Source: Leptotrichia hofstadii (GTDB lineage: Bacteria > Fusobacteriota > Fusobacteriia > Fusobacteriales > Leptotrichiaceae). From it: a stretch of 64,000 nucleotides of DNA. Shown one piece after another: positions 1 through 32,864 of this stretch (position 1 is its first letter; each line of letters opens with the position of its first letter). The stretch spans positions 2,480,001 through 2,544,000 of the forward strand of contig NZ_AP019823.1 of NCBI RefSeq assembly GCF_007990525.1, given 5' to 3'. The notes beneath the pieces are model-generated. The model was not told where the DNA came from. It searched no databases and saw only the letters and a program-made list of their open reading frames with translations. The translations under genes were made by a program, and so were the position numbers.

Positions 1-820
1 CTGAAAATCTCATCAGTTCCAGATTTGACTCATAGTAAAATGAAAATGCACCATCTTTAGCAACTCCAACACGTTTTCCTTTATATTTATTCTTTAAGTC
101 CTTTATTGGTTCAAAACTGTCTATACTGCTTTTTGCTTCAAATTCTTCTGCTATTTCGTAAATTTTTTCTAAATCTAAACAATTTTGTGCAATTTCCTTA
201 AACAGCTGTTTCTTTTCCTCAAGTTCTTTTGAGCCTTTCAATTCAAAAGCCTGTTTTAATCCCAAATGTCTGCTTTCCACCGATAATTTCTCATTTTTTG
301 GCAAATATCCTACGCATTCTATTCCCGTAAATCTTTCCACCGCTTCCTTCAAGTTTGAATATAGCTTTTCAGAAGAAACATTATTTAAAATAATACCCTT
401 TATTTTAACATTTTTATCAAACAATTTAAAACCCAAAACTTCGGCAGCTATGCTTGTGGAGATTCCTTTTGCGTTAACTACGAGAATTACTGGGATATCA
501 AGGATTCTTGATATATGAGCTGTACTAAAATTATCCTTTTCATGCCCAATTCCATCATAAAGCCCCATAACTCCCTCAACTATAGCGATATTGCTTCCTT
601 TCGCTCCTGTTTCAAATATATGCCTTAACGTACTTTCATCAAACATAAAAGCATCTAAATTACGAGATTTATTTCCCGTGAACAACTCATGATAGCCAGG
701 ATCGATGTAGTCTGGACCAACTTTAAAAGGTGCCACATTTTCAAAAGCTGACATCAATATGCTGCTTACTGTAGTCTTTCCGCCACCGCTCATTGCTCCC
801 GATATAAGTATTTTTTTCAT
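1..820 (-). CDS. cbiA: Cobyrinate a,c-diamide synthase, 3' end outside window
   Basis: The N-terminal 273 codons of a CbiA/CobB-type amidotransferase can be read; the C-terminal glutaminase half lies beyond the left edge. The enzyme uses ATP and glutamine to amidate the a and c side chains of cobyrinate in the cytoplasm. Visible features are the P-loop near the N-terminus (SGAMSGGGKTT), a KVGPDYIDPGYH motif and EGVMGLYDG, all typical of the family. The start ATG overlaps the stop of cbiO (ATGA), so the two are translationally coupled at the end of the riboswitch-controlled cbiMNQO operon. It could also be called cobB; the anaerobic-type neighbours favour cbiA. Confidence 0.9.
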   Translation of the reverse strand, partial: MKKILISGAMSGGGKTTVSSILMSAFENVAPFKVGPDYIDPGYHELFTGNKSRNLDAFMFDESTLRHIFETGAKGSNIAIVEGVMGLYDGIGHEKDNFSTAHISRILDIPVILVVNAKGISTSIAAEVLGFKLFDKNVKIKGIILNNVSSEKLYSNLKEAVERFTGIECVGYLPKNEKLSVESRHLGLKQAFELKGSKELEEKKQLFKEIAQNCLDLEKIYEIAEEFEAKSSIDSFEPIKDLKNKYKGKRVGVAKDGAFSFYYESNLELMRFS

Positions 821-1623
821 AGCAAGTTTTTTTCCTCCAAAAATTTATAATAATCATTTTCATCAAGATTTTTATACTTGAGATAACTTTTTATTTTCAG
901 TACATTTGGAATATTCAAATTTAATTTCTTCAAAAATTCAAAATCCTCAAAAACCTCATCTCTGCTCCCTTGCCGTACAATTCTCCCTTTTTCAAGGACA
1001 TAGATATAGTCAGCAAATTCATAGGCAAAATCTGTATCGTGCGTTGATACCACCATTGTTTTTCCTGCTTTGGAAAAATTATCTAGAATTTCTGATACTC
1101 TTTTTGTATTTTTAGAATCAAGCCATGCAGTTGGCTCATCTAGAATAAGAAGTTCTGGCTCCATTGCCGTAATTGCAGCTATTGAGACTCTTTTTTTCTG
1201 TCCATAGCTCAGATGATGACAAGGTCTATCTTTTAAATCTGTTATATTGATTTCTTTCATTGCCCTGTTTACATTTTTTTCTACTTCCTCTTTAGAATAT
1301 CCAAGATTTTCAGGTCCGTAAGCTACTTCCTGAAATACTAAAGGGGCAAAAATCTGTATTTCAGGATCCTGAAAAATTATTCCGACTTTTTTTCTCAATT
1401 CTTCGAGATTTTTCTTTTTATGCTCTATTTTTTTCTCTTCAAAATAAATATTTCCCTTTTGTGCTTTCAAAAGTCCATTCATTATTAAAAATAATGTTGA
1501 TTTTCCTGAGCCATTTTCCCCAAGAAATAATGTTTTCTTACCTTTTTCAATATTCAAAGTCACATCTTTTAGAGCCTCTGTATCTTCATCATACGAAAAA
1601 GTTATATTTTCAAGTCTAAGCAT
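817..1623 (-). CDS. cbiO: Cobalt ECF/Cbi transporter ATPase
   Basis: 268-residue ABC ATPase that powers the CbiMNQO cobalt uptake system at the inner face of the membrane. Walker A (GENGSGKST, about residue 35), Q-loop (FQDPE), signature (LSYGQKKR, about 138), Walker B (LLILDEPT) and the switch histidine (STHD) are all present. LSYGQ in place of LSGGQ is common in CbiO/EcfA proteins. The start overlaps the end of cbiQ by 8 bases and the stop overlaps cbiA. Position between cbiQ and cbiA makes the cobalt assignment strong. Confidence 0.93.
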   Translation of the reverse strand: MLRLENITFSYDEDTEALKDVTLNIEKGKKTLFLGENGSGKSTLFLIMNGLLKAQKGNIYFEEKKIEHKKKNLEELRKKVGIIFQDPEIQIFAPLVFQEVAYGPENLGYSKEEVEKNVNRAMKEINITDLKDRPCHHLSYGQKKRVSIAAITAMEPELLILDEPTAWLDSKNTKRVSEILDNFSKAGKTMVVSTHDTDFAYEFADYIYVLEKGRIVRQGSRDEVFEDFEFLKKLNLNIPNVLKIKSYLKYKNLDENDYYKFLEEKNLL

Positions 1624-2308
1624 TGTATTTTACCACCAAATATAAATTTATTATAACTATTATTATTACGAATATTATTTCAAACCCAATTTTTTTATAT
1701 TTTCTATGAGAAAAAATAAATTCCTTTCCCATTCTTGATTCCACAGCCTTTATAGAATTCAGATTATAGTAGTATGTTTTTTTTAATATAGCAACTACTA
1801 GCATTGGAAATGATTTCATCCCATTTTTAAAACTGCTGTATCCTAGTCTTACTTCCTGTGCATTATGTAATTTTTCCTTATTTTCAAATAATAAAAATAT
1901 ATATCTGTAAATTAGTAAAAACATTTCCCTAAATATTTTAGGAAATTTCAGCTTTGCAAATATATAGTCCAAATCTATAATTGGAGTAGAACAAATAAGG
2001 AAATAAACTACAGCTATCGAGGAAAATGAACGTAGCAAAAATGTCCATATATCCGCTTTTATAAACAGCAAGGAAATTACAGTTGTTAAAATAAATAAAG
2101 CCGGAATAAAGTTCAGCTTTAACAAGTCACCTATTTTCACTTTTACGACAAACAAAAGAAGTAAATTAAACAGTATAAAATTAAAAACAAATACTATTTT
2201 ACTTCCAGTATAAAGTAAAAATACTAATGTCGTCATTGACAATATAAACTTTACTCCGGGGTTTATATTTTTTATGGGATTTGTGTAAGATACCTTATCT
2301 ATTAGCAT
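1616..2308 (-). CDS. cbiQ: Cobalt transporter transmembrane subunit CbiQ
   Basis: Integral membrane protein of about 230 residues with several hydrophobic segments, the T-component that couples the CbiO ATPase to the CbiM substrate-binding subunit. The cytoplasmic coupling region typical of CbiQ/EcfT (FREMFLLIYRY, then an arginine-containing stretch around QEVRLGY and AVESRMGK) is visible. I place the start at the ATG at 2308, because the upstream GTG at 2320 lies in the AAAGGTGA ribosome-binding site. It overlaps the end of cbiN by 14 bases. Confidence 0.9.
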   Translation of the reverse strand: MLIDKVSYTNPIKNINPGVKFILSMTTLVFLLYTGSKIVFVFNFILFNLLLLFVVKVKIGDLLKLNFIPALFILTTVISLLFIKADIWTFLLRSFSSIAVVYFLICSTPIIDLDYIFAKLKFPKIFREMFLLIYRYIFLLFENKEKLHNAQEVRLGYSSFKNGMKSFPMLVVAILKKTYYYNLNSIKAVESRMGKEFIFSHRKYKKIGFEIIFVIIIVIINLYLVVKYNA

Positions 2309-2597
2309 TTTTTCTTTCACCTTTGAAATAGCCTAATACATACCCTACAATTCCTGCACCTAATGCCGCCTGTAATGCAAACAGCAGACTTTCAGTTTCA
2401 TCTCCTGGTAATTCTATTAAATTTTTAGCCCATGGCTCATAATCAGGTTTTATAGTTTTTATTACTTCTTCTCCCTTGTCATCAGATCCTCCAAATTCAG
2501 ATTTTACGAGAAGCAAAGGAATAACACCTATTAAAATTATTGCAATTATTAAAATAATATTCTTTTTAAATACACTTTTGTTTTTATTTTCCGACAT
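2295..2597 (-). CDS. cbiN: Cobalt transport protein CbiN
   Basis: Small 100-residue protein with two membrane helices (about residues 11-30 and 72-90) flanking an extracytoplasmic loop with the family motif KPDYEPWAKN. CbiN is the auxiliary subunit that stimulates metal loading of CbiM. Its start shares one base with the cbiM stop (TAATG), and it overlaps cbiQ downstream. Length and motif match the family. Confidence 0.92.
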   Translation of the reverse strand: MSENKNKSVFKKNIILIIAIILIGVIPLLLVKSEFGGSDDKGEEVIKTIKPDYEPWAKNLIELPGDETESLLFALQAALGAGIVGYVLGYFKGERKNANR

Positions 2598-3304
2598 TAA
2601 GCTTCCACCTCTTTTACGCTATATTTTTCAAGTATATTCATCACCACGTTTGTAAGTAGCCCTTCGATAACTGCAAGAGGAACCTGAGTTACTGCAAATA
2701 CCGCTCCAAATTTGATAAATGAAGCAACTACTCCACCTTGTGGAGATGGATATGCAAGTGCAAGCTGAATTGATGTTACCACATAAGTCGCAAGATCTCC
2801 TAACGCTGCTGCCAAAAATACCGCTAACGCCTTATTCTTTTTCTCAAATCCTTTATACACTAAATATGATACAATTGGTCCTGCAATTGCCATTGAAACA
2901 GCGTTTGCTCCCAAAGTTGTAAATCCTCCGTGTGCAAGCAATCCTGCTTGAAATATTAATACGATTGTTCCAAGAATGGAAGTTACAAAAGGTCCGTATA
3001 ATATAGCAGATAGCCCTACTCCTGTAGGATGTGATGAACTTCCTGTAACTGATGGAATTTTTAGTGCAGACAATACAAATATAAATGCACCTGCTAATGC
3101 AAGCGTCATTTTTTCCCGCACGCTCCCTTTAGAAACAGATTGAAGCTTCTTTATTCCTATTATCCAAAACGGAATACACACTGCAAACCATACCATAACC
3201 CAATTTAAAGGTAAAAAACCTTCCATAATGTGCATTGAATAACCATTTACGCCTATTAACAGCATACTGGTTAAAACCAAAAACAATAATGTTCTCTTTT
3301 TCAT
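2597..3304 (-). CDS. cbiM: Cobalt transport substrate-binding subunit CbiM
   Basis: 235-residue membrane protein that selects and binds Co(II). A signal-like hydrophobic stretch (residues 1-23) precedes MHIMEGFLP; in this family the metal-binding N-terminus begins at that MH, so cleavage just before it would expose the ligands. [10 protein letters not shown] (about residues 88-97) is the conserved histidine loop. First gene of the cbiMNQOA operon, transcribed from a promoter and B12 riboswitch upstream, so its expression should fall when adenosylcobalamin is plentiful (inferred). Confidence 0.93.
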
Positions 3305-3370: not shown

Positions 3371-3510
3371 AGCCAATACACGTCAAAACTTCCACAACAA
3401 TAACTATATCACCATCGTATAGTACGCTTATGGAACAAATCACCGTTGATTTATTTTTACATTGATGTATATTAAATCTTCCCTTCCCAGAAAATTTTAT
3501 ATAAAAAATT

Positions 3511-3666
3511 ATTAGGCAAGTCTCCTGACTAACTTCATCCTACTCATACCCTTCCCAAAATATCCAAGATATCTCAGTGGTTTTGTGTACTTTCGTCAGC
3601 TTCACAGTAGTGGGGGCTGTATCGGATTCTAACCGATTTCCTTATTAAGTTTGTAAAACACCTATA
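3511..3666 (-). promoter_or_regulatory. Cobalamin (B12) riboswitch upstream of cbiMNQOA
   Basis: Minus-strand leader carries the conserved parts of the cobalamin aptamer in order: TAGGTG at the 5' end, AATAAGGAA, GCCCCCACTACTGTGA, TTTGGGAAGGG, GAGTAGGATGAAG and the closing B12-box GTCAGGAGACTTGCC. It lies just downstream of a sigma70-type promoter and about 200 bases upstream of cbiM, with a terminator between. Known role of the class: shuts off cobalamin synthesis and cobalt-uptake genes when B12 is bound. Confidence 0.95.
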
Positions 3667-3679
3667 ATTCTTTAATAAT

Positions 3680-3707
3680 AGTATACTCTCTTTTTTATAT
3701 TTGTCAA
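3680..3707 (-). promoter_or_regulatory. Promoter of the cbiMNQOA riboswitch transcript
   Basis: Minus-strand TTGACA (3702-3707) and TATACT (3680-3685) with a 16-base spacer, ending about 14 bases before the aptamer begins. The same -35/-10 pair and spacing recur at the eut operon promoter. Confidence 0.75.
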
Positions 3708-3837: not shown

Positions 3838-4245
3838 ATGGAATTTAGTTTTACTTTAAAAATCAAAGCAAAAAAAGAAGATGCGTGGGAATACTATGCA
3901 AATATTGAAAAATGGTATGATTGGGAAAAAGACTTAAAAAATATCACATTAAAAGGTGAATTTAAGACAGGTTCATGTGGAACTATGGAACTTGAAGGAA
4001 TGCCCCCTATGGAATATAAACTTACTCTTGTAAAACCTTTTGAAGAATTTTGGGATAAAACAGAAACTCCATTTGGAGATATTCTTTTTGGTCATCAAAT
4101 AATTGACAACAATGACGGAAGCATAAATATAAAACATACTGTAATTTTGGACAGTGAAGATGAACAGCATTTAGAATTTTTAAGCCAAGTTTTTTCAGAT
4201 GTCCCTCAATCTATATTTATTCTAAAAAATTACTTGGAAAGATAA
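3838..4245 (+). CDS. SRPBCC (START-like) domain protein
   Basis: 135-residue single-domain protein of the SRPBCC/polyketide cyclase type. The opening FSFTLKIKAKKEDAWEYYANIEKW matches the fold's usual start of a beta strand followed by a helix with the W..Y motif. Members bind hydrophobic ligands; no specific substrate can be named. It has a consensus promoter and a near-ideal ribosome-binding site and is followed 12 bases later by a MarR regulator. The pair could be a small ligand-responsive unit. Confidence 0.75.
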   Translation: MEFSFTLKIKAKKEDAWEYYANIEKWYDWEKDLKNITLKGEFKTGSCGTMELEGMPPMEYKLTLVKPFEEFWDKTETPFGDILFGHQIIDNNDGSINIKHTVILDSEDEQHLEFLSQVFSDVPQSIFILKNYLER

Positions 4246-4257
4246 GGTGATTGGGGC

Positions 4258-4701
4258 TTGTTTACATCAAAATATAAAGATAATTCAGAAAAATCAACAG
4301 GATTGTTATTTATGAGGGTATACAATAAATGGCATTCTATTATAAAAAAAGAGTTAAAGAAAATGAACTTAACACACCCTCAATTTGTTGTTTTAGCTTC
4401 CCTTGCTTATTTATCACAAAACAGCGACGAAGTCACGCAAGTTATGATTTCAAAACTCTCAGGAATAGATGTTATGACAGTATCTCAAATATTAAATTTA
4501 TTAGAAAAAAATGATTTTGTAAAAAGAAAAGAACATTCAAGAGACACAAGGGCAAAAGCAGTTATTTTGAACAAAAAAGGAGAAGAAATATTACAAAAAG
4601 CTGTTCCATTAGTTGAGAAAATCGATGAAATTTTTTTCGAAAAGTTAGATACCGATGAAGAACAATTTAAACATTTTCTTGTCAGATTACACGAAGAATA
4701 A
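4258..4701 (+). CDS. MarR-family transcriptional regulator
   Basis: 147-residue winged-helix protein. The DNA-binding region is visible as LTHPQFVVLASLAYL, VTQVMISKLSGIDVMTVSQILNLLEKNDFVKR and the wing HSRDTRAKAVILNKKGEEI. The start is a TTG at 4258, eight to nine bases after an AAGGTG ribosome-binding site; the next in-frame ATG at 4312 would remove part of the first helix. It lies directly after the SRPBCC gene in one operon and probably regulates it in response to a small ligand. Confidence 0.82.
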   Translation: MFTSKYKDNSEKSTGLLFMRVYNKWHSIIKKELKKMNLTHPQFVVLASLAYLSQNSDEVTQVMISKLSGIDVMTVSQILNLLEKNDFVKRKEHSRDTRAKAVILNKKGEEILQKAVPLVEKIDEIFFEKLDTDEEQFKHFLVRLHEE

Positions 4702-6742: not shown

Positions 6743-7006
6743 TTATTTTTTCTTATAATGAGAACCGCATTGCAAAAACCAGATTTCACCATTTTCTATT
6801 TTATAAACAATTCTATTTCCTTCATTAATTCTCCTGCTCCAGTAGCCAGACAGTTCATGCTTCAAGCCTTCAGGTTTTCCGATACCAGCATATCCATTTC
6901 TATCAATGTCTTTTATAAGTTCCAATATTTTTTTGAAAACTTTCTTATCATTTTTCTGCCAGAAAAGAAAATCTTCCCATGCTTCATCAGACCATCTTTT
7001 TACCAT
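6743..7006 (-). CDS. yoeB: Txe/YoeB-family mRNA interferase toxin
   Basis: 87-residue toxin. The sequence fits YoeB along its whole length: W..WEDFLFWQ at the N-terminus, GKPEGLKHELSGYWSRRI, EGNRIVYKI and the end CGSHYKKK. The catalytic residues known from E. coli YoeB (E46, R65, H83, Y84) fall at exactly these positions here. The family cleaves mRNA at the ribosomal A site. The start ATG shares a base with the antitoxin stop (TAATG). Its partner is of the RelB/DinJ type rather than the usual YefM. Confidence 0.9.
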   Translation of the reverse strand: MVKRWSDEAWEDFLFWQKNDKKVFKKILELIKDIDRNGYAGIGKPEGLKHELSGYWSRRINEGNRIVYKIENGEIWFLQCGSHYKKK

Positions 7007-7260
7007 TACAGCACCTCGCGAACTGTTCCACCAGTTTTTTCAATTTGTTCCTTTGCTTTTAGAAGTCTTGTGATATTTTCTTCACTGTAGAAATAATCGT
7101 CTTTTTCTGACAAGTCAATTTCCAGTTTTCTCTCTCTAACCAATTTTTTGGCTGCCATTGTAAAAAAAACAGGTAATGTTATTCCCAATTCTTCGCATAC
7201 ATTTTCCAAATCAAATTTTAAATTATCGTCTAATTTAAATGCATAAGTTGTTTTACTCAT
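7006..7260 (-). CDS. RelB/DinJ-type antitoxin of the YoeB-like toxin
   Basis: 84-residue protein beginning MSKTTYAFKLDDNLK, a ribbon-helix-helix strand and helix, then LENVCEELGITLPVFFTMAAKKLVRE, typical of RelB/DinJ antitoxins. I use the ATG at 7260: the upstream GTG at 7269 is part of the AGGGGTGA ribosome-binding site. The C-terminal half is the likely toxin-binding segment. Toxin and antitoxin overlap by one base. Confidence 0.85.
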   Translation of the reverse strand: MSKTTYAFKLDDNLKFDLENVCEELGITLPVFFTMAAKKLVRERKLEIDLSEKDDYFYSEENITRLLKAKEQIEKTGGTVREVL

Positions 7261-7293
7261 TTTTATCACCCCTATACATAAATATATATAACA

Positions 7294-7349: not shown

Positions 7350-8153
7350 TTACTTAACTTCCGCAATTTCTCCACGCACAGGAAAAATTGCACTTAATAA
7401 CGACTTCGTATATGGATGTTTTGCTTTTTCAGAAATTTGTCCGCCTTCTATTACTTCCACTACATCTCCGTGGTACATTACTACGATTTCGTGTGCAAAA
7501 GATTCTATCAGTGCTATGTCGTGGCATATAAAAATCATTGTTATGTTTTTTTCTTTTTGTAGCTTTACAAGAAGTTCCACTATGTTTTTTTGAATGGAAA
7601 CATCAAGCGCGGAAGTTGCCTCGTCGCATATAAGTATCTCTGGCTCAAGCGAAATTGCTCTTGCGATTCCAAGCCTTTGTCTTTGCCCACCACTCATATT
7701 TTGTGGATACTTTGTTACGAATTCTTCAGGTAAGTCAACCATTTTAAGAAGTTCTATAGCTTTTTGCTTTCTTTCTGATCTTTTTAGTCTTCCGTAGTTC
7801 ATTAATGGCTCTGTGAGGATTTGCATAACGTTCATTTTTGGATTAAAAGCTGACCATGGATCTTGAAAGACTATCTGGATATTTTGTCTATTTTCCCACA
7901 CTTCCTGTTTTGTAAACTTGCTTATATCCCTTCCGTGATACAAAATCTCTCCAGAAGTTGGCTTTTCCAAGTCCATAAGCATATTTACAAGTGTGGTTTT
8001 CCCTGATCCTGATTCTCCAACAATCCCCAAAGTTTTTCCTTTATGAATTTTTAAATTTACGTTGTTACAAGCCACTACTTTTTTATCATTTGATTTTTCA
8101 TAAATTTTTGTAAGTTTTTTTGTTTCAAGAATTACATCATTAATATTAGACAA
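7350..8153 (-). CDS. Nickel/peptide-type ABC transporter ATPase (NikE/OppF-like)
   Basis: About 267 residues. Contains Walker A (GESGSGKTT), Q-loop (FQDPWSAFNP), signature (MSGGQRQR), Walker B (ILICDEATSALD) and the C-terminal HPYTKSLLSA motif typical of the oligopeptide/nickel subfamily. Last gene of a five-gene ABC operon. The start is probably the TTG at 8153, which lies six bases after a GGAGGTGA site inside the end of the preceding ATPase gene; the TTG at 8168 is upstream of that site. The B12 riboswitch upstream of the operon suggests cobalt or nickel as substrate. Confidence 0.85.
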   Translation of the reverse strand: MSNINDVILETKKLTKIYEKSNDKKVVACNNVNLKIHKGKTLGIVGESGSGKTTLVNMLMDLEKPTSGEILYHGRDISKFTKQEVWENRQNIQIVFQDPWSAFNPKMNVMQILTEPLMNYGRLKRSERKQKAIELLKMVDLPEEFVTKYPQNMSGGQRQRLGIARAISLEPEILICDEATSALDVSIQKNIVELLVKLQKEKNITMIFICHDIALIESFAHEIVVMYHGDVVEVIEGGQISEKAKHPYTKSLLSAIFPVRGEIAEVK

Positions 8154-8931
8154 GCCTTTCACCTCCAATTTCAGGCACAGCTTCTAGCAATTTTTTAGTA
8201 TATTCACTTCTTGGATTTTCTATAACTTCGTTCTTATTACCTGCATCAACGATTTTTCCATTCTGCATAACAATTATTTTATCTGAAATATATGCCGCAA
8301 CTCCAAGATTATGAGTTACCATTATGATAGAAGTGTCAAATTTTTTTCTGAGATCCATTATTTCCTTTACTATTTGAGCCTGTGTTATAACATCTAATGC
8401 ACTTGTAGGCTCATCTGCCAGAATAATTTTTGGATGGAAAGTTAGTGCCATTGCTATTCCTACACGCTGTTTCATTCCACCTGACAGTTGGTGCGGGTAG
8501 CTTTTCATAATGATTTCAGGATCTGGCAAGTTTACTTTGGAAAACATATCTTTCGCTTTTTCTTCAGCTTCTTTTGTTGACATTTTAGAATGTGTCTGAA
8601 TGTATTCGACAAACTGTTTTCCTATTTTTCTTATTGGATTAAGAGTTCCTCCTGAATCCTGTGAAATCATAGTTATTTCAGTTCCTCGCAGCTCCCTCCA
8701 TTGATTAAGGCTTTTACTGAGCATTGATTCCCCATTATAAATTATATCGCCTGAAATTATTTTCCCTCCATTTGGCAATAGTCCCAAAATAGAAGAAAGA
8801 ACGGTAGATTTTCCACTACCGCTTTCCCCCACAATTGTTATTATTTCACCTTTTTTCAATGAAAGAGAAAAATTTTCAACTACTGGAAGCTTATCTCCAT
8901 ACTGAATTGTCAAATCTTTTATCTCCAACAT
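8146..8931 (-). CDS. Nickel/peptide-type ABC transporter ATPase (NikD/OppD-like)
   Basis: 261-residue ATPase with Walker A (GESGSGKST, about residue 36), Q-loop (ISQDSGGTLNP), signature (LSGGMKQR), Walker B (IILADEPTSALD) and the switch histidine (VTHNL). The C-terminal extension (SEYTKKLLEAVPE) is typical of the NikD/OppD subgroup. It is the second ATPase of the heterodimeric motor, with the partner gene overlapping its 3' end. Cytoplasmic face of the membrane. Confidence 0.87.
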   Translation of the reverse strand: MLEIKDLTIQYGDKLPVVENFSLSLKKGEIITIVGESGSGKSTVLSSILGLLPNGGKIISGDIIYNGESMLSKSLNQWRELRGTEITMISQDSGGTLNPIRKIGKQFVEYIQTHSKMSTKEAEEKAKDMFSKVNLPDPEIIMKSYPHQLSGGMKQRVGIAMALTFHPKIILADEPTSALDVITQAQIVKEIMDLRKKFDTSIIMVTHNLGVAAYISDKIIVMQNGKIVDAGNKNEVIENPRSEYTKKLLEAVPEIGGERLV

Positions 8932-8940
8932 AAGTTCTCC

Positions 8941-10506
8941 TTAATTAGCTTTTGCTACATCTTTTGTTATCCAGTAGTAATCCATTGGATACATTTTAAG
9001 CCCTGTTACCACTTTGTTGCTGTAAAGGAATGTAGTTTCATATCCAAAGAATAATGTCGCTGCATCGTTCATTATTAGCTGCTGTATTTTTACAACAAGA
9101 TCTTTTCTCTTAGCTTTGTCAAATTCTTTTGATAATTCATCAAGCATTTTATCAACTTCAGGGTTTGAATAACCTGTTTTGTTTGTTTCTGCTTTGCTGT
9201 ACCAGTTTTCATGCAAGTATTTTTCAGGATCTCCAGTATTTGCAGCAAGTACGTTCCAAATTAGCATATCAAAGTTTGAATCGTCTCTCATGCTCAAAAC
9301 TGTTTCATAGCTTACAGGTTTTAACGTAACTTTTATACCAATTTCTTTCATGTCAGTTTGAAATGCCTGAGCATAAATTTGCAATTCTTCTCTACTTGTA
9401 TAAATTACAAAGTTCAAGTCAATTTTTGATCCATCAGGACGTTCTACAAACCCATCTCCATCCACATCTTTATATCCTGCATCTGCTAATATTTTCTTAG
9501 CACTTTCACGGTTATAGGCATTTTCATCTTTTAATTCATTAAATCCGAAGTCCAATGTTGGTGGAACTGGTGCTTTTCCTGGAGTTGCTCCGCCTTGTAA
9601 TAAGTTTTTCGTATAATTTTCTCTATTTGCACCTCTTATTATTGCTTCTCTTAATACTTTGTCCTTCAATCCCTTAGTTTGGTTCATAAAGGCATAAGTT
9701 GATCTTAATGATTTCAATTCATTTATTACAATATTTTTATCCCCTTCAAAATTAGCCTTATTAGTAACTTTCAAGTTGTATGCCACATCAATTTCTCCTG
9801 ATTTTAGCGACAATGCTCTTGTATTTTGATCATTTATATCTTTAAATGTTACTTTTGCCAGTTTTGCTTTTCCATTCCAGTAATTTTCATTTCTTACAAC
9901 AACTGTCTGTTCACCAGGCTTAAATTCTTGAACAACAAACGGTCCTGTTGATATTGGCCCTTTTTGAGCAAATTCATCTGTATTAACTGATGTGTCAACT
10001 ATTAAGAACAACGGATCTGCCAATGATTCAGGCAATATTGCTACAGGCTCTTTTGTTTTTATTTTCAATTCTTGTCCATTGGCTTCTATCGAAGTATATT
10101 TAAAGAATGATTCTGCTCTTTTATTTTTAGCAAATACTCTTTCTATTGATTTTTTTACTGCCTCTGCTGTCAATGGATGTCCATTTGAGAAAGTTACTCC
10201 ATCTCTTATTTTAAAAGTCCACTCTAATTTATCATTACTTAATTTCCAGCTTTCAGCAAGCAATGGCTGCAAGTTACCTTTTTCATCAAAAATTGTCAAG
10301 TTCTCTCCAACACCATAACGAGTTACAACCCAGCTAAAGTACTGATCCGTAGGCTCAAGAGTATCTGCAAACGAAGTTACTCCAACTACAAGTTCATCTG
10401 GATTAGTTTTACTTTTTCCAGAACCGCCTTTTCCACCACATGCTACAAGCAGCATCAATACTGCTAAAATTAAAATTAAAAATTTACTTTTACGATTTTT
10501 TAACAT
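8941..10506 (-). CDS. Extracellular solute-binding lipoprotein, NikA/OppA family (SBP_bac_5)
   Basis: 521-residue binding protein. A signal peptide ends in a lipobox (LLVACGG) with lipidated C23. The body shows the family pattern: LAESWKLSNDKLEWTFKIRDGVTFSNGHPLTAEAVKKS, later YWNGKAKLAKVTFKDI and the C-terminal TLFFGYETTF. This architecture binds nickel complexes, cobalt chelates or peptides. The closest match by eye is to NikA-type proteins, and riboswitch control makes a metal or metal-chelate ligand more likely than a peptide. The binding residues cannot be judged from sequence alone. Confidence 0.87.
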   Translation of the reverse strand: MLKNRKSKFLILILAVLMLLVACGGKGGSGKSKTNPDELVVGVTSFADTLEPTDQYFSWVVTRYGVGENLTIFDEKGNLQPLLAESWKLSNDKLEWTFKIRDGVTFSNGHPLTAEAVKKSIERVFAKNKRAESFFKYTSIEANGQELKIKTKEPVAILPESLADPLFLIVDTSVNTDEFAQKGPISTGPFVVQEFKPGEQTVVVRNENYWNGKAKLAKVTFKDINDQNTRALSLKSGEIDVAYNLKVTNKANFEGDKNIVINELKSLRSTYAFMNQTKGLKDKVLREAIIRGANRENYTKNLLQGGATPGKAPVPPTLDFGFNELKDENAYNRESAKKILADAGYKDVDGDGFVERPDGSKIDLNFVIYTSREELQIYAQAFQTDMKEIGIKVTLKPVSYETVLSMRDDSNFDMLIWNVLAANTGDPEKYLHENWYSKAETNKTGYSNPEVDKMLDELSKEFDKAKRKDLVVKIQQLIMNDAATLFFGYETTFLYSNKVVTGLKMYPMDYYWITKDVAKAN

Positions 10507-10556
10507 TCTTTTCTCCCTATATACTTTATTTTTTGTTACTTTTTTATTTTTTCAAC

Positions 10557-11378
10557 TTATTCACTTTTTATATCAACTAAATCTCTTACCGAATCTCCCA
10601 GCATATTGAATATAATTACAACAATTACTATTGCTAGCCCTGGATACATCATCATCCAAGGAGCTCTGCTAAGTGTTGTTCTACCTTCATTAAGCATTGC
10701 TCCCCACTCTGGTGTTGGAGGCTGTGCTCCAAATCCTAAAAATGAAAGTGCCGCTATTTCCAGCATTAATGTTCCCATATCTGAAACTGCTGTTACTATC
10801 ATCGTTGTAATCATATTTGGAATTATATATTTAAATATTATTGAGTAATCCCTGCTTCCTGTTATTTTTGCCGCTTCTACATACAGTTCCTGTTTTATTT
10901 TAAGGACCATACTTCTTGCAAGCCTTGCGTATTTTGTCCAAGTAACTGCCGCTATTGCTATAATTGAATTTTTCACGCTCGGATTCAAAAGTCCAGCTAT
11001 CGCTATAGCAAGAATTAATCCTGGAAATGCAATCATCATATCTCCAAGTCTCATTATCACCGTATCAACAATTCCTCCAAAATATCCTGCAAGCACTCCC
11101 AGTATAGTTCCTACAGCAAAAATTATGAACATCAAAGTCAAAGTCATGAATATTGAGTATCTTGAACCATATATAACTCTTGAGAATAAATCCCTTCCAA
11201 GCTGATCCGTTCCAAAAATATACTGTTTTGATGGACGTTGCAAACTTGGCGCTAATTGTTTAAAAGGATCATTTGGCACTATAAATGGTGCAAAAATTGC
11301 AATTAGTACCACAATAATCGCAAGTGCCAGAAATATTTTCAGTTGTGTATTTTTTCCCATAAATTTCAATTTGTTCAA
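10557..11378 (-). CDS. ABC transporter permease, NikC/OppC-like
   Basis: 273-residue permease with about six membrane helices. The N-terminal soluble stretch contains DPFKQLAPSLQRPSKQYIFGTDQLGRDLFSRVIYGSR, cut short here as the standard OppC/DppC/NikC signature, and the EAA loop reads EAAKITGSRDYSIIFKYIIPN. The start appears to be a TTG at 11378, ten bases after GGAGG; the ATG seven codons on is possible. It pairs with the NikB-like permease upstream. Confidence 0.87.
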   Translation of the reverse strand: MNKLKFMGKNTQLKIFLALAIIVVLIAIFAPFIVPNDPFKQLAPSLQRPSKQYIFGTDQLGRDLFSRVIYGSRYSIFMTLTLMFIIFAVGTILGVLAGYFGGIVDTVIMRLGDMMIAFPGLILAIAIAGLLNPSVKNSIIAIAAVTWTKYARLARSMVLKIKQELYVEAAKITGSRDYSIIFKYIIPNMITTMIVTAVSDMGTLMLEIAALSFLGFGAQPPTPEWGAMLNEGRTTLSRAPWMMMYPGLAIVIVVIIFNMLGDSVRDLVDIKSE

Positions 11379-11380
11379 GT

Positions 11381-12322
11381 TTAAATTACCTCCTCAACTC
11401 TTGCATCTAGATATTTATACGAAATATCAACTGCGATATTTACTATCAGGTACAAAAATGCGATTATTAGCACATAAGACTGAATTAGCGGATAATCCTG
11501 AGCTGATATTGCTTTTACTGCCATTCTTCCCATTCCTGGCCAGTTATAAACTATCTCTACAACTGCAGTTCCTCCCAGAAGGCTTCCTAATGAAAGTCCT
11601 AGAAGCGTTATTATAGGCAGCATTGCATTAGGCAATACATGTTTCCACAAAATATCACGTTCTTTTATTCCCCTCATTCTAGCCCCTGTCACATAACTTT
11701 TTCCAAGTTCTTCAAGGAATATGTGTCTTATTTGACGTATATACTTAGCAGACATTGCTATCGCTATTGTTAATGCAGGTAAAATCATTGATCCAAAATC
11801 AGCATTTCCGCCTGAAACTGATACAAGTCCAAGCTGTACTCCAAATATGCTCAAAAATACTAGTCCTAACCAAAAACTTGGCACAGACATTCCCATGAAT
11901 GTCAACATTCTTATTAAATAATCCTGCCATTTATTTTCTTTTACAGCCGCAAGTATTCCAGTCGGTATTGAAATTACGCACATTAAAAACAGTGCCATAA
12001 ATGAAAGGGACAATGTTGGAATAAATGCCTGCGCTATCTTTTGAATTACTGGAATCCTTAACGAATAGGACTTCCCAAAATTACCTTGCAGAACTCCAAA
12101 CAGCCATTTCCAGTATTGGATATAAAAAGGCTTATCAAGTCCAAGTTCAGCTCTTGTCTGTGCTAAAAGCTCCGGTGTAGGAAGATGTCCGCATTCTGTA
12201 AGCATAACTTGGGCAGGATCTCCTGGCGAAATATACATTAGACAGAATGTAAAAAAGCTTATCCCAAAAAGTACAACTAATATCTGTATAACGTATTTTA
12301 TTATTTTTTTATTCTTTGCCAT
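11381..12322 (-). CDS. ABC transporter permease, NikB/OppB-like
   Basis: 313-residue permease. Six predicted helices; the N-terminal FCLMYISPGDPA and the cytoplasmic EAA-like loop (GARMRGIKERDILWKHVLPNA) identify the OppB/DppB/NikB family. It is the first gene of the five-gene transporter operon, with a GGAGGAAA ribosome-binding site and a riboswitch leader with terminator in front. The gene order permease-permease-binding protein-ATPase-ATPase differs from E. coli nikABCDE. Confidence 0.87.
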   Translation of the reverse strand: MAKNKKIIKYVIQILVVLFGISFFTFCLMYISPGDPAQVMLTECGHLPTPELLAQTRAELGLDKPFYIQYWKWLFGVLQGNFGKSYSLRIPVIQKIAQAFIPTLSLSFMALFLMCVISIPTGILAAVKENKWQDYLIRMLTFMGMSVPSFWLGLVFLSIFGVQLGLVSVSGGNADFGSMILPALTIAIAMSAKYIRQIRHIFLEELGKSYVTGARMRGIKERDILWKHVLPNAMLPIITLLGLSLGSLLGGTAVVEIVYNWPGMGRMAVKAISAQDYPLIQSYVLIIAFLYLIVNIAVDISYKYLDARVEEVI

Positions 12323-12370
12323 TATTTTATAAAATTTCCTCCTTTACAAAATTTATATTTTGTACAAATT

Positions 12371-12395
12371 AAAAAATCCAACTCAGAAAGTTGAA
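12371..12395 (-). terminator. Leader terminator between B12 riboswitch and NikB-like gene
   Basis: Minus-strand stem TTCAACT (12389-12395) with AGTTGGA (12377-12383), one G-T pair, five-base loop, then six T. Placed between aptamer and first gene, it is the likely B12-controlled attenuator. Confidence 0.75.
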
Positions 12396-12498
12396 TCAAA
12401 TTTTATATATTAAAACCAGATGAAAAGTATCTATGTAAATTTCCAGCAGTCTTTATATATTAAATTTTTCCCTTCCCGAAAAATGTAACTTTATTATA

Positions 12499-12650
12499 TA
12501 GGCAAGTCTCCTGACTAACTTCATCCTACTCGTATCCTTCCCAAAATATAATGATATTTTAGTGGTTTTCATACTTTCGTCAGTATCACAGTAGAGGTGG
12601 CTGTACCAGATTCCAACTGGTTTCCTTATTAAGTTTATGCAACACCTATA
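12499..12650 (-). promoter_or_regulatory. Cobalamin (B12) riboswitch between cbiK and the Nik-like operon
   Basis: Minus-strand aptamer elements in order: AGGTGTTGC, AATAAGGAAACC, ACAGCCACCTCTACTGTGA, TTTGGGAAGGATACGAGTAGG and the B12 box GTCAGGAGACTTGCC. It begins only about 30 bases after the cbiK stop, and no good promoter is visible in that gap. It therefore seems to act inside a cbiK-transporter transcript, controlling only the downstream genes. Confidence 0.94.
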
Positions 12651-12683
12651 AAATTATAAATTTAAAATTATTCTTTTATTATA

Positions 12684-13424
12684 TTAATAAACTTCTTCCA
12701 GTTTATCCATGAACATTTTACGTATAAACTCATATTCTCCCATTCCTTTTAATAAAGGCGTTACTTTATATCCTTCATTTTGAAGAATTGTTTTCCACGA
12801 ATCTTCCTCATCAGAAGCCATATCATTTTTAGCGTGATCTCCAGCTACTATCATAAATGGCTTTAACAATATTTTTTTAAATCCTCTCCCTTTTAATTTT
12901 TGAATGACATCTTCAATTGTCACTTGCCCTTCAACAGTAGCTATGAAAATATTATCTTTCCCAGCTTTCAGATATTCCTCCTGAAGCCGTTGATATGTAC
13001 TGTCTGCTGCACTTTCGGAACCATGTCCCATAAACACAATGGCATCATTCCCTTCTGTACTGTTAAACTCTTCGTCGTTTACAACTTTTTCAAAATCTTC
13101 ATCATTTATTAAAAGTGGTTTTGAAATTTTTCCATATTTATCATTAAGTTTTGCATACTCTATTCCATCCAGAATATGCAGTGACATTGTTACAATCTCA
13201 TCATAACCTTTATTTTTCAAAGCTTCCAGTCCTTCATTCTGATCAAATATGTGAATTCCTTCCTTTCTTTCCACTATTCGTCTTATAACTCCCGATGTAT
13301 AAGCTCTTTCCACTTTTTCGCTTCCATATTTAGCTCTTACTTCATTTTCAATCAAATCAAGGCATTTTTCTCTCGTATCCTTGTGTGATGTTCCAAAACT
13401 CGTTACTAAAACTGCTTTTTCCAT
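12684..13424 (-). CDS. cbiK: Sirohydrochlorin cobaltochelatase (anaerobic)
   Basis: About 246 residues. CbiK inserts Co(II) into sirohydrochlorin in the anaerobic cobalamin pathway, without ATP. Family marks are the N-terminal VLVTSFGTSHKDTR, the catalytic-histidine motif VFMGHGSES and the second metal ligand region MIVAGDHAKNDMASDEEDSW. The start is taken at the ATG at 13424 after AAAGGAAG; a GTG two codons upstream lies in the spacer. Candidate operator repeats overlap its promoter at 13593-13634. Confidence 0.93.
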   Translation of the reverse strand: MEKAVLVTSFGTSHKDTREKCLDLIENEVRAKYGSEKVERAYTSGVIRRIVERKEGIHIFDQNEGLEALKNKGYDEIVTMSLHILDGIEYAKLNDKYGKISKPLLINDEDFEKVVNDEEFNSTEGNDAIVFMGHGSESAADSTYQRLQEEYLKAGKDNIFIATVEGQVTIEDVIQKLKGRGFKKILLKPFMIVAGDHAKNDMASDEEDSWKTILQNEGYKVTPLLKGMGEYEFIRKMFMDKLEEVY

Positions 13425-13592
13425 AGACACTTCCTTTCATTCTTAAAGTTATAGATTTTTTACCTTCAATTTTCCATTTTATCTAAAACTAAATTTTTAC
13501 CTCCTTTCTACAATATTATAACAATCCTGCTAACCTACTAATGCTTCAATTTCTCAATTCTTCTGAACCCCATTAAGATTGACTAAATCCTA

Positions 13593-13634
13593 AAACTAAT
13601 ATAGTTGTATTAGTTTAAGTTTGACAACCAAACT
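13593..13634 (-). promoter_or_regulatory. cbiK promoter with overlapping inverted repeats
   Basis: Minus-strand TTGTCA (13622-13627) and TATATT (13598-13603), 18-base spacer, form a plausible promoter. A 9-bp inverted repeat (AAACTAATA at 13593-13601, TATTAGTTT at 13608-13616) covers the -10. A second one (AGTTTG 13618-13623, CAAACT 13629-13634) covers the -35. The half-site AAACTA/TAGTTT occurs three times at 18-19 base steps. The rest of the 379-base gap 13431-13809 shows nothing else clear. Confidence 0.5.
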
Positions 13635-13809
13635 ATTTAATCTTCATACTTACATTATAATAATTATTTGTTTTTTTTGCAACTGTTTTTTTACAGTCTT
13701 TTAATATTTTTGGATTTACAAAAAAAATTACATATCTAGAAATATCTGCTGTTTATCAATGTTTTTTCGTTTTGTTTTTATTTTTTCATATTTTATGATT
13801 AAATTATGA

Positions 13810-15198
13810 TTAATATTTATTTTTATTTATTTTCAGAAGTAAATTTTTCAGCTCTTTTAATTTTTCTGACAAATGCACTCTTTTTATTTTTAATTTTTCT
13901 CCATATACTTTTCTCACAAGCATCAAATTACTGTCATAATATTTTTTTGCCTTTTTCAACTCCAGCAATTCATAATTTTCTGCAATTTTTTTACCATCTG
14001 AAATATAATCAATTGTTAATTTTTTAATATTTCCTGTATCTTCCAGCTTTTCATCTTCCAATGCTATGACATCGTAAAAATCATTGTTTTCATAGACTCT
14101 ATACAAATCCTTGTTTCCTGGCAATGATGTTTTGCCACTTTCATCAGAAATTTTCATTACGTCATTTTTATTAATTTTAGACATTTTATAGACAGTGCTT
14201 ATTTCTCTTTCTGGCAATGCTATGGCATCTCCTACTCCAAATACATCAACTTCTGCCTGATTTTTTATTAGATTTTCTATTTTTTTATCGTCAAGTCCAC
14301 TCGTTAATACAATTTTCGCCTTATAGAGTCTATTTTTATCAAGAATTCTTCTACATTCTTTCGACAATTTTTCCAAATTTCCCGAATCTATCCTTATTCC
14401 ATACATTCCTTCGTATTTATCATCTATGCCATTATCTTTAAATGCCTTTACAGCACTAATTATTCCACTCTCAAGAGTGTCATAAGTATCAATTAGCATT
14501 ATAAGAGCCTGATTTTTGTTCCTATACATTTTTATAAAAGCGTCAAAAGCCTTGTATTCAGCACTTTCTCCCATTCCAAAAGTCTGGATAAAGCCATGTG
14601 TCATCGTTCCTGTACTTTTCAAGTCATAAAGATATTCTGCCGCAAGATTTGAGTGAGATATGCAACCGGCTACATAGCTAGCTTTTGTCATTGTCATCGC
14701 TGCATCAAATCCAGCTGTTCTTCTTGTTCCAAATGAAAGCACTCCCCTTCCTTCAGCCGCTAGCACAATTTTAGAAGTGACTGTTGCCGCAAGTGTCTGA
14801 AAATGAAGAATATTCAAAATAGGCGTTTCAAGGATTTTCCCTTGTATAAGTGGAGCAGTAATCGTTAGTATTGGCTCATTTGAAAATACAATTTCTCCAT
14901 CTTGTACCCCTTTTATCGTACCTGTAAATTTCATATTCGCAATATATTCGATAAAATCAGAATTATCAAATATTTTTGACAAATATTTCTTCTTGTCCTC
15001 ATAAGAAGTTTCGTTAAGTATCTCGATAAGCTCAAGAACATCAGATATCCCATACACTACAGCATAGCCATTTTCTTCTTTTGTACGTAAAAATACATCA
15101 AAAGTTGCAATTTCATTTTGCATATTATTTTTTAAATAAATCTCACTTTCTGTGTACTGATACCTGTCTGAATTTAAAAATTTAAAAAATTTTTCCAT
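13810..15198 (-). CDS. pncB: Nicotinate phosphoribosyltransferase
   Basis: 462 residues. Converts nicotinate and PRPP to nicotinate mononucleotide in NAD salvage. The family core GVLSFGTRRTAGFDAAMT, the SHSNLAAEYLYDLKSTGTMTHGF block (read here in two parts) with the phosphorylatable histidine region, LMLIDTYDTLESGI and IRIDSGNLEKLS are all clear. Single gene between cbiK and eutQ, ending just before the long gap with the cbiK promoter; no operon partner. A terminator hairpin lies upstream, between it and the eut operon. Confidence 0.93.
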   Translation of the reverse strand: MEKFFKFLNSDRYQYTESEIYLKNNMQNEIATFDVFLRTKEENGYAVVYGISDVLELIEILNETSYEDKKKYLSKIFDNSDFIEYIANMKFTGTIKGVQDGEIVFSNEPILTITAPLIQGKILETPILNILHFQTLAATVTSKIVLAAEGRGVLSFGTRRTAGFDAAMTMTKASYVAGCISHSNLAAEYLYDLKSTGTMTHGFIQTFGMGESAEYKAFDAFIKMYRNKNQALIMLIDTYDTLESGIISAVKAFKDNGIDDKYEGMYGIRIDSGNLEKLSKECRRILDKNRLYKAKIVLTSGLDDKKIENLIKNQAEVDVFGVGDAIALPEREISTVYKMSKINKNDVMKISDESGKTSLPGNKDLYRVYENNDFYDVIALEDEKLEDTGNIKKLTIDYISDGKKIAENYELLELKKAKKYYDSNLMLVRKVYGEKLKIKRVHLSEKLKELKNLLLKINKNKY

Positions 15199-32836: not shown

Positions 32837-32864
32837 AGTATACTATGATTTTTCATTTTGTCAA
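32837..32864 (-). promoter_or_regulatory. Promoter of the eut operon
   Basis: Minus-strand TTGACA (32859-32864) and TATACT (32837-32842), 16-base spacer. It lies about 250 bases before the first eutM, leaving room for the ANTAR hairpin and terminator. No other promoter is evident within the operon. Confidence 0.75.

Follow-up and report, generated by a model that had tools for sequence, protein, structure and literature searches.

A B12-controlled Nik-type transporter operon behind cbiK in Leptotrichia hofstadii, a probable second cobalt importer

We analyzed a stretch of 64,000 nucleotides of Leptotrichia hofstadii (contig NZ_AP019823.1, positions 2,480,001 to 2,544,000; hereafter the window), in which an operon for a nickel/peptide-type ATP-binding cassette (ABC) transporter follows cbiK, a sirohydrochlorin cobaltochelatase-type gene, on the minus strand, with a cobalamin (B12) riboswitch and a terminator-like hairpin between the two. 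The original prediction had described this arrangement, and all of its parts are found where it put them (Table 1). The operon (7350-12322) reads nikB-nikC-SBP-nikD-nikE, SBP being the substrate-binding protein, and has the full protein plan of NikABCDE: one SBP, two permeases, and two ATPases. The NCBIfam families matched by the permeases, Opp2B and Opp2C, both carry "nickel" in their names. The riboswitch, RS1, begins 19 nt behind the cbiK stop codon, and a second, RS2, precedes the genes for the cobalt transporter CbiMNQO, which supports the further claim that one cell would have two B12-controlled metal transporters. An Rfam scan at gathering scores found no RNA in the window besides RS1 and RS2, and no third RF00174 copy in the whole 2.6 Mb genome. 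The names CbiN, CbiQ, and CbiO rest on gene order and reading, and only CbiM was named by family search. With a GTG start the cbiK open reading frame would span 12684-13430; the ribosome site is better placed for an ATG at 13424, two codons further in. The cbiK product scores 195.6 bits against the NCBIfam CbiK equivalog model, short of the cut-off of 400. It is not the sole cobaltochelatase-type gene, since a second cbiK paralog (C1:2463101-2463841, locus L115; PF06180, 201 bits) adjoins a cupin gene elsewhere in the genome; among 13 genus members this paralog occurs only in G000, G005, and G007 (G and L numbers are our handles for genomes and loci).

Table 1. Features of the cbiK-nik locus and its surroundings, in window coordinates.
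Feature	Position	Strand	Evidence or remark
NAPRTase-type gene	13810-15198	minus	
Probable cbiK promoter, TTGCAA-17-TATAAT	13654-13682	minus	consensus match; proposed driver of cbiK and nik
cbiK, sirohydrochlorin cobaltochelatase-type	12684-13424	minus	PF06180, 232.2 bits (gathering score 26.2)
RS1, cobalamin riboswitch aptamer	12484-12664	minus	RF00174, 86.8 bits, E 4.9e-20 (gathering score 31.5)
Terminator-like hairpin (candidate attenuator), then T-rich run	12375-12397	minus	-7.4 kcal/mol
nikB-like permease (Opp2B)	11381-12322	minus	NF045470, 377.5 bits (cut-off 350 passed)
nikC-like permease (Opp2C)	10557-11378	minus	NF045474, 336.7 bits (cut-off 300 passed)
SBP, family-5 substrate-binding lipoprotein, NikA/Opp5A-like	8941-10506	minus	PF00496, 304.5 bits
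nikD-like ATPase	8146-8931	minus	Pfam/NCBIfam family searches
nikE-like ATPase	7350-8168	minus	Pfam/NCBIfam family searches
RelB/YoeB toxin-antitoxin pair	6743-7269	minus	directly behind nikE
Smaller genes between relB-yoeB and RS2; a MarR-type and one unassigned gene on the opposite strand	3838-4701		
RS2 own promoter, TTGACA-16-TATACT	3680-3707	minus	2 pattern matches in the window, 0.04 expected by shuffling
RS2, cobalamin riboswitch before cbiMNQO	3498-3680	minus	RF00174, 98.1 bits
cbiM-cbiN-cbiQ-cbiO, energy-coupling factor (ECF) cobalt transporter	817-3304	minus	CbiM: TIGR00123, 264.8 bits (cut-off 184)

The riboswitches before cbiM and those before nik differ in what lies upstream of them. 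Of the 19 cbiM-type riboswitches in the family, 18 are preceded by TTGACA and a TATAAT-like box, starting 22-33 nt before the aptamer (shuffle P at most 0.01 in 16 of 19; the exception, in G003, has TTGTAA), whereas none of the six Leptotrichia nik riboswitches has an upstream sigma-70-type promoter clearly above shuffles (P 0.09-0.64), a contrast with a Fisher P of 4e-5, uncorrected for relatedness. The promoter test left out G023, G021, G020:1809454, and the short riboswitches, and the 18/19 count leaves out a broken third copy in G005, with TTGACA present and the -10 box changed. Within the cbiK gene there is no 10/12 promoter match in any of the seven Leptotrichia genomes with the cassette. 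A separate sigma-70-type promoter directly before RS1, which the original prediction had named as grounds for refutation, was looked for and not found. Ahead of cbiK, TTGCAA-17-TATAAT recurs in all seven genomes despite differing flanks; other 10/12 matches occur in only some of the genomes (G000 and G007 have a second site, likewise ahead of cbiK, and G008 has two more). The most telling genome is G014, in which the aptamer with its preceding spacer and the hairpin have been lost through two separate deletions; the nik genes and the segment separating the two deletions survive, and the aligned parts of cbiK and nikB are 134 nt apart. The nik genes there must use the cbiK promoter or an unrecognized one, and the joint loss of aptamer and hairpin suggests that the B12 switch of nik has gone as a unit. 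These observations support the predicted placement of RS1 within the apparent cbiK transcript, in which cbiK and nik would be co-transcribed. The accompanying suggestion that cbiK escapes B12 control is plausible from the position of cbiK upstream of the switch.

Just behind the probable cbiK start site is an inverted repeat, AGTTTG-N5-CAAACT (13618-13634), which occurs once in the genome as an exact pattern and keeps its form in relatives; it may be an operator or an RNA hairpin giving cbiK a control of its own. A palindrome at about 13598-13627, over a second promoter-like site before cbiK, was also considered as an operator and was dropped, being missing in G006 and G008.

The hairpin behind RS1 stands at the same place in all six Leptotrichia nik leaders (-4.1 to -7.4 kcal/mol), and an attenuator role for it is plausible but weak. 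It is missing from the output of a generic terminator scan, whose filter requires three G-C pairs in the stem; this stem has only two, which is the probable reason. RS2 also has a T-rich terminator-like site. The free fold of the RS1 leader (z -2.5) does not settle the switch, and a pairing of the L5 loop with the terminator, tried by eye, was dropped when it failed to hold in relatives.

Orthologous operons came from a phylum search with the SBP (98 genomes) and a pattern scan of named genomes with six exact peptide stretches, which finds close relatives and is not a census. Among the matches listed, SBP orthologs 53-71% identical to that of the window occur in Fusobacteriaceae, Lachnospiraceae (Blautia and others), Clostridium, Cellulosilyticum, and Veillonella, with the order nikB-nikC-SBP-nikD-nikE in every sufficiently long stretch with unbroken genes (G071 has a nikD fragment and no nikE within the stretch taken; G060 and G062 have broken genes). 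By Rfam scans, RF00174 lies directly before nikB in 16/16 clostridial loci with an intact 5' flank, in 5/10 Fusobacteriaceae loci (G071, G061, G059, G041, and G060), and in six of the seven Leptotrichia genomes with the cassette, and in neither of two outgroup operons (L163 and L164; SBP 32-35% identical). Left out of the riboswitch counts are loci whose 5' flank is cut (L154, L158, L160, and L175), one with broken genes (L182), and duplicates (L142, L149, and L153); the ortholog counts omit L163, L164, and the more distant L166-L169, which had no RNA scan. On a tree of 33 SBP rows, Leptotrichia joins G071 and G048-G050 (support 97/98), and the riboswitch label changes 3 times, against 7.2 in shuffles. 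The operon also goes with B12 synthesis: among the matches listed, CbiD is present in 18/18 Fusobacteriota genomes with an SBP ortholog of at least 465 matched residues versus 58 of the 80 others, which include G020 and G062 with SBP fragments only (Fisher P 0.010, relatedness again uncorrected).

Cobalt is the best inference for the metal, given the orthologs behind B12 riboswitches in Bacillota and Fusobacteriaceae, the B12 genes, and the absence of the nickel enzymes that were searched for. The genome has cbiA, cbiC, cbiD, cbiL, cbiF, and the second cbiK at 2463-2481 kb, and the window has cobQ/cbiP, cobD, hemA, hemC, and cobA at 43.5-51.2 kb, which are parts of an anaerobic-type B12 pathway. 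The eut operon (15-30 kb of the window; eutB and eutC recognized from sequence, EutQ by Pfam) would be another user of the B12 made. NiFe-hydrogenase and LarA were found in 0/33 family genomes, in a search that did not extend to carbon monoxide dehydrogenase, nickel superoxide dismutase, or glyoxalase I, and urease in 0/13 genomes of the genus; four urease matches outside the genus are marginal, scoring about 23 bits over short segments, and were taken for other amidohydrolases. No NikR scored over the cut-off in the 33 family genomes, two matches of 20-21 bits being below it, in frames with stops, and from another genus. With the searched nickel enzymes missing, we set a NikA-style nickel role low.

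The SBP is 25% identical to wild-type Escherichia coli NikA, with which it was compared residue by residue in 33 SBP rows (near copies and two outgroups included; L161, a broken frame, excluded). Arg97 of NikA is kept in all 33 rows, as R130 in the SBP, and Trp100 is Phe in 29. An apparent loss of Arg97, seen in an alignment to PDB 2noo (a mutant chain), was overturned by wild-type NikA, which aligns Arg97 with Arg130. Against NF047575, the model for CntA of the staphylopine importer CntABCDF, the SBP scores 140.2 bits, under the cut-off of 800. Across 32 rows, L161 included, not one histidine reaches 95% conservation, nor does any reach 90% in a 22-row alignment without L161; a metal, if bound, is more likely to be bound as a chelate than by a histidine of the protein. 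The AlphaFold2 model from the 22-row alignment (predicted local distance difference test score 88.1) is closest to Staphylococcus aureus NikA (4xkr: Z 42.2, root-mean-square deviation 3.4; its twin 3rqt: Z 42.1), followed by Bacillus halodurans 3t66 (Z 40.7) and Campylobacter NikZ (4oet_A: Z 40.4, root-mean-square deviation 1.9). S. aureus NikA (Opp5A) and NikZ were solved with nickel-histidine chelates; they differ from the Leptotrichia system in that identity is 25% and the Leptotrichia operon is under B12 control. The protein sequence suggests a cobalt chelate rather than the bare ion as cargo.

We consider it likely that nikBC-SBP-nikDE is a second, high-affinity importer of cobalt, probably as a chelate, that is switched by B12 and transcribed from the cbiK promoter; we infer the cobalt from context and its chelated form from the SBP. 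The nik mRNA would start at the cbiK promoter and pass through the cobalamin riboswitch and attenuator between cbiK and nikB. When adenosylcobalamin is low, polymerase would read through into nik; when it is ample, the hairpin would stop transcription, the cbiK mRNA would end there, and no importer would be made. Repression by adenosylcobalamin through termination is a reading taken from the known action of cobalamin riboswitches. In this arrangement cbiK would keep a basal supply and the importer would follow demand, feeding B12 synthesis, while cbiMNQO would be switched separately by RS2 from its own promoter. A bolder version is possible but on balance doubtful: with an Arg97-type anchor kept and no histidine shared by the orthologs, the SBP would act as receptor for a naturally occurring cobalt chelate (either a cobaltophore or cobalt with a small carboxylate or amino acid), would be made only when B12 is short, and would define a cobalt-scavenging branch. 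If true, such a branch of the "nickel/peptide" family would be common to Leptotrichia, Fusobacteriaceae, and gut Lachnospiraceae, and the Leptotrichia wiring would be an intercistronic B12 attenuator that uncouples chelatase from importer.

A number of observations weigh against the proposal of a cobalt importer driven from the cbiK promoter. On the side of the protein, the best NCBIfam match of the SBP, Opp5A/NikA NF045468, stays below its cut-off (351.6 against 600 bits), as does the NikA equivalog TIGR02294 (197.8 against 393); Arg137 of NikA is Asp in 33/33 rows, His416 is missing in 33/33 (a gap in 32), and the window SBP also lacks Trp398 and Tyr402. His416 is the histidine with which E. 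coli NikA binds nickel. Signal-, glutathione-, and dipeptide-binding proteins score Z 39.4 to 37.2 against the model, so the fold by itself does not name the cargo. On the side of regulation, the hairpin is weak and no antiterminator has been established in the RS1 leader, the cbiK promoter is a consensus match of 10/12 only, and the promoter scans covered sigma-70-type sites, with other sigma factors outside their scope. Five Fusobacteriaceae orthologs (G050, G048, G049, G051, and G054/Fusobacterium mortiferum) and the one Veillonella locus with an intact 5' flank have no riboswitch. Since four relatives have cbiK-riboswitch-cbiMNQO without nik, the adjacency of cbiK to the riboswitch says little about nik.

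Could the cargo be something other than cobalt that is needed when B12 is short, for instance a corrinoid, a precursor of B12, a peptide, or a compound of amide type? Known corrinoid importers are mostly of the BtuCDF type, the nearest solved folds are nickel-chelate binders, the permeases pass the cut-offs of nickel-named families, and one clostridial operon (L146) has cbiK downstream. B12 riboswitches do control uptake of B12 and its precursors too, according to PMC3766115, the SBP has no conserved histidine, and AstE/AspA-type hydrolase genes (PF24827) beside 4 of 14 clostridial B12-controlled nik operons (L147, L151, L161, and L162) hint at an amide-bearing cargo; these hydrolases might process an imported chelate. 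We regard this alternative as unlikely. An ordinary nickel importer that happens to sit under B12 control has in its favor that the closest named families and folds are those of nickel importers, yet of the nickel-related genes searched for, urease is missing from the genus, NiFe-hydrogenase and LarA are missing from the family, and no NikR passes the cut-off; B12 repression also makes little sense for nickel, and we judge this reading very improbable.

The preferred reading of one transcript from the cbiK promoter has its own competitor, to which we assign only a small chance: RS1 may have an unrecognized promoter, with cbiK and nik as separate transcripts. Family cbiM riboswitches have a promoter at just this place in 18 of 19 cases, and a TATAAT, part of which may be conserved for RNA pairing, stands at the aptamer 5' end in all six Leptotrichia nik leaders; in G000 another TATAAT lies behind the cbiK stop, and at the aptamer edge in G007 there is a further 10/12 match (P 0.09). 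No fitting -35 box accompanies them, however, the six leaders do not rise clearly above shuffles, the TATAAT behind the cbiK stop is TATAAC or TATAGC in G007, G006, and G008, and in G014 the stretch from cbiK to the aptamer has been deleted too, leaving nik without any such promoter. In the Fusobacteriaceae nik leaders L178, L179, and L181, where no cbiK is seen beside nik, TTGACA is readable just upstream, with a -10 box that the scan filter rejected.

The operon belongs to a known kind, the predicted B12-controlled Nik-type cobalt importers. PMC2667541 treats NikABCDE members of Clostridium tetani and Desulfitobacterium hafniense behind a B12 riboswitch as exceptions to nickel specificity, and Arg97, Arg137, and His416 of E. 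coli NikA are among its discriminators. Compared by description rather than sequence, these operons are likewise Nik-type ABC operons behind a B12 riboswitch, whereas the Leptotrichia riboswitch lies behind cbiK and has no recognized promoter of its own. E. coli NikABCDE shares the five-protein plan, the SBP fold (1zlq, Z 36.9), and the Arg97 equivalent, and differs in SBP sequence, in Arg137 and His416, in gene order (B-C-A-D-E in Leptotrichia), and in regulation, the Leptotrichia operon having a B12 riboswitch and no NikR. CbiMNQO in the window has, like nik, a cobalamin riboswitch and a T-rich terminator-like site, but is an unrelated transporter type whose riboswitch is served by a separate TTGACA promoter. 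CbtJKL of Sinorhizobium meliloti, as described in PMC7689651, is also an ABC cobalt importer under an adenosylcobalamin riboswitch, but with a BtuF-like SBP and of another ABC family. The operon of Leptotrichia and Blautia is undescribed in the available parts of PMC2667541, PMC3766115, PMC7689651, PMC4285132, and PMC11477304, which is not proof that it is unpublished. As far as this literature goes, new features are an extent that takes in both Lachnospiraceae and fusobacteria, an SBP that departs from NikA at its ligand residues, and, in Leptotrichia, the intercistronic riboswitch with no recognized promoter. The recurrence of a B12 riboswitch before the operons in two phyla argues for reading this branch as probable cobalt importers that supply B12 synthesis. 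A cobalt reading of this nickel-named family bears on B12 makers in gut and mouth, and the locus offers a testable example of a putative additional cobalt route, repressed by B12, next to CbiMNQO, and of a riboswitch that lies between the chelatase and importer genes and has apparently lost the promoter in front of it.

The origin of this arrangement is probably local. RS1 aptamers form one group (support 0.981), closest to the cbiM riboswitches of the same family; identity is 55-79% (medians 74-75%) to the 19 family cbiM-type aptamers, and 35-52% and 47-60% to the nik aptamers of 16 clostridial and 5 Fusobacteriaceae loci. Arrival of RS1 with nik from clostridia was rejected on these grounds, and an acquired transporter probably came under a local copy of the riboswitch that lacked the promoter. 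G010, G015, G017, and G020 have cbiK-promoter-riboswitch-cbiMNQO and no full-length SBP copy among the matches listed (G020 has a fragment at a contig end), and in six of seven genomes the cassette with its riboswitch lies between cbiK and cbiMNQO, the G005 cassette being about 60 kb away. In G005 there is also a fossil (L044, C1 84.4-85.8 kb), which appears from its pieces to be a recombination remnant: a riboswitch with a changed -10 box, a cbiM fragment, a nikE fragment, and relB-yoeB. The RelB/YoeB pair that follows nikE in the window recurs in G008, in G014, and next to the fossil of G005, and was not seen in G006, G007, or G012.

Other features near B12-controlled nik genes recur. A second, divergent Nik/Opp operon, with an SBP 26-29% identical to that of the window, lies behind a short cobalamin-type riboswitch (RF00174 or AdoCbl-II RF01689) at L038, L037, L046, L058, and L060 (G007, G002, G005, G012, and G020) and at L052 (G006), and adjoins eut genes in G005, G006, G007, and G012; neither RF00174 copy in the window's genome is of this kind. 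Directly behind clostridial nik, 9 of 14 loci (L145, L146, L148, L151, L152, L155, L156, L157, and L162) have, downstream of nikE, a secreted-looking protein of about 400-415 amino acids with a similar start (by eye), for which no Pfam match was found in the two examined. In the window itself, a strong promoter-like TTGACA-16-TATACT, of the same form as the RS2 promoter, lies at 32837-32864.

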